Assembly: GCF_029207735.1 (NCBI RefSeq)
Contig: NZ_CP104395.1
Span: 850,692-914,691 of the forward strand
Length of the DNA stretch: 64,000 nucleotides
Reading direction: 5' to 3'
DNA from: Candidatus Nanohalococcus occultus
Lineage (GTDB): Archaea > Nanohalarchaeota > Nanosalinia > Nanosalinales > Nanosalinaceae
Every line of letters begins with the position of its first letter. Position 1 is the stretch's first letter. Shown piece after piece: positions 26,908 through 59,573 of the stretch. The notes under the pieces are model-generated. The model did no database searches. It was given only the letters and a program-made list of their open reading frames with translations, and was not told where the DNA came from. The position numbers were made by a program, and so were the translations under genes.

Positions 26908-27063
26908 TTAACTGAGCGTGCCTGGACGTGCGTTCTGAATTATCTCTTCGAAACCTGTAGACAGTATACCTGCTACGACGAGAGTTACAATACCTGCTAT
27001 GACTATAAGCACCAGTATCTCCGTAGGCAGGGTTACAGAGCCTATCCTGTTGCGACCGATGAT
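26908..27063 (-). CDS. Prepilin-like microprotein with apparent ATC start (51 aa)
   Basis: The hydrophobic frame reads I-I-GRNRIG-SVTLPTEILVLIVIAGIVTLVVAGIL... and ends at TAA 26908. It has the helix and Gly site of its neighbours. Upstream in frame the only codons before a stop are CTG GCT GTT TGG AGG TGT TGT ATC ATC, with no ATG, GTG or TTG. GGAGGTG lies 4 nt before the first ATC. Another frame through the same bases gives a hydrophilic, unpilin-like peptide. Either an ATC (or CTG) start or a sequence error. Confidence 0.5.
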   Translation of the reverse strand: MIGRNRIGSVTLPTEILVLIVIAGIVTLVVAGILSTGFEEIIQNARPGTLS

Positions 27064-50132: not shown

Positions 50133-52307
50133 TTACAAACCCCCATTAACTTCGGAAGGATCGATAATACCGGAACAGGAATTGTAAATCGACTCGCCGA
50201 CGTACCTGCCCGGGTCAGCTCCCTCCTCACATTTTTGCCCGGAGATATGTAAGATAAGATCGGTTTCACCGTCCTCTTCGGCGCTTATTATAGAGTACTG
50301 CTCCCAGTTACCTTGCTCTATGTCTCCGTCCATATCCGGATCAAGCCGCCGCCATTTTGACTCGCTGAAACCTGTAGCGTTTCTCATACCGAAGTTACTG
50401 AGCGATACCGCCACATCACCTTCCTCTACAACTCCCCGTGTGATCGAACCCATAGTCGGATCCTGCCAGTCCTCTCCGGAAACAATCGTACAGCCTCCGT
50501 AAGAATCAACTCCCGTACAAGTAGTCTTGTAACTGTAATCCGGATTACTATCATTGAAATCAACAGTCACCAGCCGAGGGCATTCCATCTGACTACACGC
50601 ACCTTGCGCATTCACGTTAAAGTTATCTAACGGCTCTTTTTCTGATACCGTGTAGTTAGCGCGGACTCTGTACGCCAAAGTCTCTCCTGTGCGGCTTATC
50701 TGATCCAAACTATCCTCATCCAGTAGCATACGGCATCCTAGAAGTGGAGGAGTATTGCTTTCAGAGTACCAGTAATCAATGTTTCCAATCTCCGGCTGGT
50801 AGACGACTCTGTTCTCAACTTCTTCCTTTAACGTCATCCTATCACCTGGCTCAAGATTATTGAAAGAACAGGAACTTGAGACACCGCGCGTATAACGAGA
50901 GTTGATGACCTCAACCCCTTTAATACGGTATCTGATGCCCGAATCATCAGTCTCCGTGAAAACATCCATTCCAAACGGCACAGGACTGCGACCACCGCTT
51001 TCTGTAAATGTTACAGGCGATTTAACGTTTACTGCTGCGCTTACAGGAGTGTCTGGAGCTTTAGATGGTTGAACTTCCTGCTTTATGTTTTCCTCAAGCA
51101 TGTAATCTCTTGACATCGCATTAAACGTAACACGGCCTCCAGAATAGTAATCATACCTTAAACGAAGCATTATTCTACGATTTTCACCTAGAGCTGGCTG
51201 AAGCATCTCACAAGACTTGTAAGTAAGCGCAGAATTGTTTTTATACCTCAATCCATACTCCTCATGGTCTTTTACAGCTGTTTCCTCGATGAAATCCTCG
51301 TTAAGATCCATGAAACCTGATCCGGCGGTCGTTCCTTTCCTGATATCATCGCTCCTGCCATCGCCATCGACATCCGAGTTACCGAGATGTAACCAGCCGG
51401 TATCACAGTACGGGTTATCTACCCCGCGATCTCCGTCGATAACCTTGATACGGTATATGACGTCCTGAGCATCGATACCTTTACCGCCCTCCATATCGTT
51501 AGAGACCGTAAAACCGACAGGGATCGAGCTATCACGCGCCCTATACGACACATCTATGGAATCACCGTTGCCAACCCGGAAATTCTCAATCTCCAAGCCG
51601 TAACTCTGCCCTACTTCCTGTGCGCCCGGTCGCTGATCGGCCTGCCGCTGACGCATACAGCCTGGACCCTCTATGAAACACATCAACGACTCAATCGGAC
51701 CACGGACCTCATTAGAAACCTCCTGAACAGTATCAGACTCCCCTGCCAAACGGTCGTCGGCCTGATCCAGACCAAACCCTGCGTAAGCCGTTAACGGATT
51801 ATCCGTTACCAGACCTGCCGCCGAGGCAACTGTCGGAACAACCGCCAAAAGCACACCTATAACTACAACAGCAGTTACCCCACGGACAAGCCATTTCAAA
51901 GCCGGAGAACCATCCTCGCTCCTTAAATTATCGAAACCTACGTTATTAGCCGTATCTGAGCTTTTAGAGCTTGTAGGATCCATAAGATTCTTATCAAGCG
52001 TAGGATTATTATCGCGAATTTCTGCGCTTTCAAATACATCTATAAAACCTCCAGAAAGCAACCTGACGACGTTCCGGTCAACAGCATTCGGTAAAAGAAG
52101 AAATATTATTTGAATCATATTCAATCTCCCTATATCTAGCGGTTTAGCGCCCGTGGCTTTCATGAAATTCACTAAGAACTGCGGCACAATATCGAGACCT
52201 TTCAGTTCCATGATGCCTAATAAGAACCCTGCTGTTTCCTGATCAAAAAACGGGATAGGAATACACCAGAAAAGATCGCCCAGCCGGTCTTTAATCCAAC
52301 TTGAAAT
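50133..52307 (-). CDS. Large membrane-anchored surface protein, apparent ATT start (724 aa; 692 aa from ATG 52211)
   Basis: A conventional ATG at 52211 lacks a Shine-Dalgarno, while the frame stays open and protein-like upstream (WIKDRLGDLFWCIPIPFF...) to an ATT at 52307 placed 4 nt after GGAGTGA. Cytoplasmic N-terminal region of about 130 aa, one helix (WLVRGVTAVVVIGVLLAVVP), then a 570-aa exterior part. It includes MLRLRYDYYSGGRVTFNAMSRDYMLEE, matching the lipoprotein group, and many Cys. First residues remain uncertain. Confidence 0.7.
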   Translation of the reverse strand: MSSWIKDRLGDLFWCIPIPFFDQETAGFLLGIMELKGLDIVPQFLVNFMKATGAKPLDIGRLNMIQIIFLLLPNAVDRNVVRLLSGGFIDVFESAEIRDNNPTLDKNLMDPTSSKSSDTANNVGFDNLRSEDGSPALKWLVRGVTAVVVIGVLLAVVPTVASAAGLVTDNPLTAYAGFGLDQADDRLAGESDTVQEVSNEVRGPIESLMCFIEGPGCMRQRQADQRPGAQEVGQSYGLEIENFRVGNGDSIDVSYRARDSSIPVGFTVSNDMEGGKGIDAQDVIYRIKVIDGDRGVDNPYCDTGWLHLGNSDVDGDGRSDDIRKGTTAGSGFMDLNEDFIEETAVKDHEEYGLRYKNNSALTYKSCEMLQPALGENRRIMLRLRYDYYSGGRVTFNAMSRDYMLEENIKQEVQPSKAPDTPVSAAVNVKSPVTFTESGGRSPVPFGMDVFTETDDSGIRYRIKGVEVINSRYTRGVSSSCSFNNLEPGDRMTLKEEVENRVVYQPEIGNIDYWYSESNTPPLLGCRMLLDEDSLDQISRTGETLAYRVRANYTVSEKEPLDNFNVNAQGACSQMECPRLVTVDFNDSNPDYSYKTTCTGVDSYGGCTIVSGEDWQDPTMGSITRGVVEEGDVAVSLSNFGMRNATGFSESKWRRLDPDMDGDIEQGNWEQYSIISAEEDGETDLILHISGQKCEEGADPGRYVGESIYNSCSGIIDPSEVNGGL

Positions 52308-59064: not shown

Positions 59065-59277
59065 TTAGCCCCCTGCTATAACATCGAAGACTCTAATCGA
59101 GTCACCGTCCTCAAGAACCCGACTTTTCGATACAACCGTTCCATCGATCGATACCAAGACCTCCTCGGAAGCAATGCCCTGTTCCTCAAGCAAGTCCTTT
59201 ACCGTGGATCCGTCATCCAACTCGAGGTCTTTTTCGACTTCTTTTTCCAGATCATCTCTTACGAGAGTTATTTTGAT
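59065..59277 (-). CDS. MoaD/ThiS/SAMP-like ubiquitin-fold protein with apparent ATC start (70 aa)
   Basis: Frame reads IKITLVRDDLEKEVEKD...TVKDLLEEQG...VLVSIDGTVVSKSRVLEDGDSIRVFDVIAGG and ends in Gly-Gly, the mark of MoaD/ThiS and archaeal SAMP modifiers. Family members begin M-K-hydrophobic; here the first codon is ATC. The frame is closed by TGA nine codons upstream with no ATG, GTG or TTG between. It overlaps the mazG-like stop by 10 nt. May supply sulfur for tRNA or cofactors or tag proteins. Confidence 0.75.
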   Translation of the reverse strand: MKITLVRDDLEKEVEKDLELDDGSTVKDLLEEQGIASEEVLVSIDGTVVSKSRVLEDGDSIRVFDVIAGG

Positions 59278-59573
59278 CCAGGATCCCCTTTTTCTTCAAT
59301 TCTTGATTTGTACTTGGCTAGAGATTTTTCCAAGGCTTCTTCAGCGTCAATCCCTAGATCAGAGGCAACTCTGAGAAGTGAGAAAAGAGCATCTCCTATC
59401 TCATCTTCTTTGACTTCAATTTCATCCTCTTTAACCCCATAACCCGCAGATTTAGCCGCATCCCCGGCTATTTCCCCTATTTCCGCAGCCAGATCAAGTA
59501 TTCTGAACGCAGTCTTACCCCGGAGCTGGTTTTCACGGACAAACTCTTCAACACGACGCTGAGCATCTCTCAT
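59268..59573 (-). CDS. MazG-like nucleotide pyrophosphohydrolase
   Basis: 101 aa. LAAEIGEIAGD (E-x-G-E like) and the second acidic helix VKEDEIGDALFSLLRVASDLG match the all-alpha MazG fold with its metal-binding E/D residues. Probably cleaves aberrant or surplus NTPs or dNTPs. Located between the OGG-like glycosylase (upstream) and the ubiquitin-like gene (overlap). Confidence 0.85.
   Translation of the reverse strand: MRDAQRRVEEFVRENQLRGKTAFRILDLAAEIGEIAGDAAKSAGYGVKEDEIEVKEDEIGDALFSLLRVASDLGIDAEEALEKSLAKYKSRIEEKGDPGSK

Follow-up and report, generated by a model that had tools for sequence, protein, structure and literature searches.

An AUC codon as the probable start of a SAMP/MoaD-type gene in a nanohaloarchaeal family that appears to use near-cognate starts for a few genes

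Introduction

Gene callers and most models of translation initiation treat AUC and AUU as near-dead start codons. The closest described systems are infC, which encodes IF3, and pcnB of Escherichia coli, both of which have natural AUU starts; the AUU of infC makes its translation sensitive to an initiation factor. A survey of start-codon turnover in 36 groups of close genomes counted one AUG to AUU and two AUG to CUG changes among 61,358 ancestral AUG starts (PMC5622118). For archaea, a 2021 review describes non-canonical events as shown only for elongation and termination (PMC8211752), and in Sulfolobus aIF1 discriminates against non-canonical starts (PMC6237735). We found no report of AUC or AUU starts in nanohaloarchaea in the open-access literature.

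Here, we describe a ubiquitin-like gene of the SAMP/MoaD type in Candidatus Nanohalococcus occultus, a salt-loving, symbiotic nanoarchaeon; the gene is very probably genuine and translated from AUC, judging from comparative sequence evidence, in a family that would use AUC or AUU, and rarely CUG, for a few genes. As with infC and pcnB, a translation-related gene here has a conserved AUU as its only start, but the case is archaeal, involves AUC as well, and concerns the genes for SAMP, methionyl-tRNA synthetase (MetRS) and a KefB-like transporter, with any regulation being hypothetical. The events are of the same type as those in the turnover survey, AUG being replaced by a near-cognate codon; we found several in about 655 ortholog pairs, but over longer divergence and independently of annotation.

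Results

The genome of strain SVXNc (G000 in our comparison) is a single contig of 948,351 bp with 47.4% GC, the values given when it was described (PMC10266531). The window, a stretch of 64,000 nt of this contig, contains the features listed in Table 1.

Table 1 Coordinates of the features discussed, numbered from the first position of the window
Feature	Position	Strand	Basis or remarks
SAMP/MoaD/ThiS-type ubiquitin-like gene	59065..59277	-	70 aa, C-terminal Gly-Gly
Proposed SAMP start ATC (AUC)	59275..59277	-	sole start-like codon between upstream TGA and conserved core
Shine-Dalgarno (S-D)-like GGGGATCC of SAMP	59281..59288	-	sequence, 16S 3′ end, relatives
MazG-like pyrophosphohydrolase gene	59268..59573	-	Pfam MazG 24.6 bits vs gathering cut-off 22
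Overlap of MazG 3′ end and SAMP start, 10 nt	59268..59277	-	sequence
Small pilin-like membrane protein gene, 3′ of FlaJ/TadC-like gene	26908..27063	-	ATCATC behind GGAGGTG
Large conserved protein gene, proposed ATT start at 52307-52305	50133..52307	-	S-D GGTGGAGTGAT

The SAMP frame translates as IKITLVRDDL...DVIAGG*. The initial annotation had called this product a MoaD/SAMP family member ending in Gly-Gly, and profile searches bear this out: Pfam ThiS matches at 1e-10, Pfam SAMP2 scores 27.5 bits, barely above its cut-off of 27, and the best solved relative is SAMP2 (5lda_B; phmmer, 4e-7). The match to NF006231, a 70-residue model, pairs model positions 10-70 with protein positions 10-70, which places the ATC at model residue 1. 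The equivalog model for SAMP2 (NCBIfam NF041919) gives 29.7 bits, under its curated cut-off of 70, and the protein is also under the NCBIfam equivalog cut-off for ThiS. We therefore assign it to the beta-grasp family with a terminal Gly-Gly, as far as profile matches can place it, and not to one exact subtype. The same genome encodes an E1-like protein (PF00899 at C1:747408, 129 bits) and an NcsA/TtuA-like protein. Going by its family, the SAMP-like protein probably serves in sulfur transfer for tRNA thiolation and/or in protein conjugation. Fold family, length of 70 aa, Gly-Gly terminus and E1-like and NcsA/TtuA-like partner genes are all as in described SAMP2/MoaD/ThiS proteins (5lda SAMP2; PF1061, 1rws); the gene described here differs in its probable AUC start.

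An ATC start with no ATG, GTG or TTG to replace it had been proposed from the sequence, and we confirmed that no such codon lies between the in-frame TGA and the conserved core, although the TGA precedes the ATC by seven codons (the six in between read RKRGSW) and not by nine as first stated. The 16S rRNA 3′ end is GGATCACCTCC, with a normal anti-S-D. We expressed the spacing of each S-D as its offset, counted from the first base that the consensus GGAGGTGATCC would occupy. In G000, ATG starts with an S-D match of at least 6 nt peak at offsets of 14–16 nt; the SAMP ATC is at offset 14, and its spacing is thus normal. In relatives, the SAMP S-D sequences are GGTGATNN, with a perfect GGAGGTGATCC in G002.

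The arrangement of an S-D, five nucleotides and ATC is found at the same SAMP residue in seven genomes of five genera (G000, G015, G008, G007, G002, G018 and G010), and in the six relatives of G000 it reads GGTGAT-N5-ATC. All of these except G000 carry an in-frame TGA inside the S-D, two codons before the ATC; since this TGA closes the frame, ATC is the only plausible start in those six. The homologous codon is ATG in G016, a congener of G010, and GTG in G009. In G006, SAMP starts with ATG one codon upstream, and in G003 and G012, which belong to one genus, it starts a few codons upstream with GTG or ATG. The initial annotation had pointed to the codon in close relatives as a check on the ATC, and to a frameshift-corrected upstream ATG as evidence against it. 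ATC is kept in the five genera, and we found no such ATG in the relatives that have it; only G003 and G012 start upstream.

The genomes compared are related, so that counts across them are not independent. Pairwise synonymous divergence among the seven SAMP sequences is near saturation (pS 0.58–0.94; pN 0.04–0.35), and sharing of S-D-N5-ATC by sequences that differ at 58–94% of synonymous sites is beyond chance. Twenty-two residues are invariant in the seven proteins, and codon 1 alone among them has no synonymous variation; the invariant Ile35 and Ile67 vary among ATA, ATC and ATT. The codon is conserved across genera, and AUG or GUG stands in its place elsewhere in the family, from which we infer that it is the site of initiation.

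The SAMP start lies inside the end of the MazG-like gene, whose stop codon is at 59270-59268. As in ATGA/TGATG overlapping pairs, for which translational coupling is described, SAMP starts within the final codons of the gene before it and has its S-D in that gene's 3′ end; unlike in those pairs, the start is ATC, since ATG in this register would cut MazG short. Read in the frame of MazG, the A of the ATC closes GGA and its TC opens TCA or TCG (Gly-Ser), and an ATG in its place would convert the TCA (Ser) to a stop (GGA TGA). A GDPGS-type tail (D-P-G-S) is also present in the haloarchaeal MazG proteins L024 and L025, which have no downstream SAMP, indicating that selection on MazG itself probably maintains the Ser. 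The overlap is thus the likely reason for ATC at SAMP, as ATG would truncate MazG and remove its conserved, Ser-containing tail. Since the ATC supplies part of the MazG Gly-Ser in six of the seven genomes, the overlap would partly explain why the codon is conserved. G010 retains the ATC though no MazG gene was found in its genome; the overlap cannot account for this case, the only overlap-free one of the seven. In G012 (L007) and G003 (L009), the two genomes with GTG or ATG starts a few codons upstream, the overlap is solved otherwise, with AGT as the Ser codon.

Since the two frames overlap, with SAMP in the -1 frame, SAMP might instead arise through -1 frameshifting as part of a MazG-SAMP fusion, to be cleaved off or used in fused form; in G000, a run of AAAA directly precedes the MazG stop. 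We consider this very unlikely. The AAAA run is missing in G015, G002, G007 and G008, and the TGA inside the S-D of the six relatives leaves few codons for slippage. Moreover, G010 keeps the ATC without MazG, and relatives lacking MazG begin SAMP at or beside the same residue with ATG or GTG.

MetRS is an essential enzyme, and it charges the initiator tRNA. The MetRS gene of G000, at C1:569035 (+) outside the window, starts with ATT. It scores strongly against methionine--tRNA ligase models; in the alignment to NF001100, MetRS residue 3 is model position 3, so that the model Met falls on the ATT. Only one MetRS copy was found in G000; the other hits, weaker in score, are long open reading frames sized like other class I synthetases. 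Across the family, 15 of 18 genomes (L142-L159) have ATT or ATC behind AGGTG or AGGTG(A/G) at S-D offsets of 13–16, placed 7–9 codons (12 in G009) ahead of the TSALPY motif. No canonical start codon occurs from the upstream stop to TSALPY in 11 of the 18, or as far as the HxGN class I signature in 7; a possible upstream GTG or TTG is present in G015, G009, G011, G001 and G003. The homologous start is ATG in G016 and GTG in G004, and it is ATA in none of the 18 genomes, though ATA makes up about 30% of Ile codons. MetRS of G007 (L147) has neither a canonical start nor a well-placed ATT or ATC; AGGTGA is followed there directly by ATC ACC TTC. We rejected an order-wide trait, since MetRS of other families in the order has an ATG or GTG start or upstream canonical codons; from these gene sequences, the use of near-cognate starts looks family-specific.

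The initial annotation had listed two further genes in the window with the feature seen at SAMP, those starting at 27063 and 52307, and both proved to have an S-D and ATG-starting counterparts. The pilin-like gene could start at the ATC at 27060 (S-D offset 14) or that at 27063 (offset 11), and small genes at the same place start with ATG in G002 and G015. The N-terminal SWIK of the 52307 gene aligns with ATG-S-W-I-K of the G015 ortholog. Elsewhere in the family, the KefB-like transporter has ATC in G015, G008 and G011 and ATT in G017, covering two genera, with GAGGTGAT and a stop one codon upstream; its orthologs have ATG in G000 and most other genera. MsrA has CTG in G000 (C1:542001, -) against ATG in G015, and a zinc-type small protein has CTG in G015 against ATG in G000, each with an S-D match of 6-7 nt. 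A separate pilin-like protein begins ATT AAA GGC in G015 and ATG in G000.

An unbiased comparison of orthologs covered 655 non-overlapping pairs between G000 and G015, plus about 64% of G002. Among 12 codons that align to an ortholog's ATG in genes with no canonical start of their own, seven were ATC, ATT, ATA or CTG, of which two (G000_1822 and an antisense-type match) were not counted as real; all three of the 12 with an S-D match of at least 6 were near-cognate. G000_1822 (ATT) was rejected for an ATG seven codons downstream, and G015_9186 (ATA, weak homology; S-D run of at most 5) as a misalignment or shadow frame, as were the GCC, ACG, CTC and GAC rows, which have no S-D run above 5. In genome-wide counts of codons behind S-D sequences, ATC and ATT were not enriched, ATG was, and GTG and TTG were more weakly so. 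The lack of bulk enrichment is consistent with use of ATC and ATT in few genes only, too few for bulk counts to reveal; S-D matching alone is noisy. We conclude that near-cognate starts are rare (about 1% of genes) yet conserved.

G000, G015 and the examined part of G002 each have one initiator-type tRNA, with a CAU anticodon and a GGG:CCC anticodon stem, by which we rejected an altered initiator anticodon. Loss of aIF1 (SUI1) was likewise rejected as a cause: the gene is present in G000 and most relatives, and a gross loss of stringency is therefore not evident. In G000 it is duplicated in tandem (C1:780976-781185 and 781272-781481, +), and the N-terminus of the second copy is rich in Cys (MSVCPDCGMEKELCVCD); most relatives carry a single copy. 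With a normal initiator tRNA and anti-S-D, and aIF1 present, the data argue for near-cognate initiation and not for a changed code. The MetRS and SAMP sites hold ATC and ATT, the codons that a GAU anticodon can read, and not ATA; this would fit a special initiator, for example elongator tRNA-Ile(GAU) or an additional initiator tRNA, that reads AUC and AUU to give proteins starting with Ile. However, no GAU initiator-type gene was seen in addition to the single CAU initiator of each of the three genomes, GAU could not read the CTG starts, and selection or sampling could leave ATA absent. A special initiator is, in our view, highly improbable.

The first canonical codon in the SAMP frame is a TTG at 59220. 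It is a standard start and the choice of automatic callers, and its use would give a 51-aa protein with the upstream part untranslated. This is extremely unlikely, since loss of the first 19 residues would deprive the ubiquitin fold of its first beta strand and its hairpin. The TTG is not conserved, and no relative starts the protein at that codon. Furthermore, SAMP codons 2-12 have a pooled pN of 0.18 against a pS of 0.81, indicating that the N-terminus is under purifying selection. A sequencing or assembly error hiding an ATG deserves almost no credence: metagenome-derived assemblies can carry errors, but we found no sign of one here, independent genomes share the ATC (seven, complete single-contig ones among them), and an ATG would place a stop in MazG.

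Discussion

The SAMP, MetRS and KefB-like comparisons support the proposal of the initial annotation that AUC and AUU serve as real starts in this lineage, for few genes only. A small set of genes in this nanohaloarchaeal family would have AUC or AUU, rarely CUG, as sole start. At SAMP, the S-D within the MazG 3′ end would position the 30S subunit at the AUC, and ribosomes terminating on MazG could re-initiate there. Ordinary Met-tRNAi (CAU) would pair with AUC or AUU by the first two bases, the third being mismatched, with help from the strong S-D; the SAMP product would accordingly begin Met-Lys-Ile.

MetRS has no overlap that would explain its start codon, which was probably selected to keep translation low or regulated. 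The MetRS AUU/AUC might be a conserved control element that ties synthesis to aIF1 stringency or to the supply of Met-tRNAi, SAMP and the other genes with AUC or AUU starts being part of one regulon with it; we offer this tentatively and consider it doubtful as a whole. Such control would parallel the AUU loop of infC in an archaeon. MetRS is a better example of near-cognate starts than SAMP, and possibly the more important finding.

In one family, an essential enzyme and a ubiquitin-like modifier appear to rely on a retained AUC or AUU alone for initiation. Annotation of genomes in this group is probably faulty, with MetRS and SAMP missing or truncated. A co-culture and RNA-seq data exist for the SVXNc host system (PMC10266531), which makes the AUC and AUU starts directly testable. 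If confirmed at the protein level, they would provide a natural archaeal test system for the control of start-codon stringency by aIF1 and initiator tRNA.
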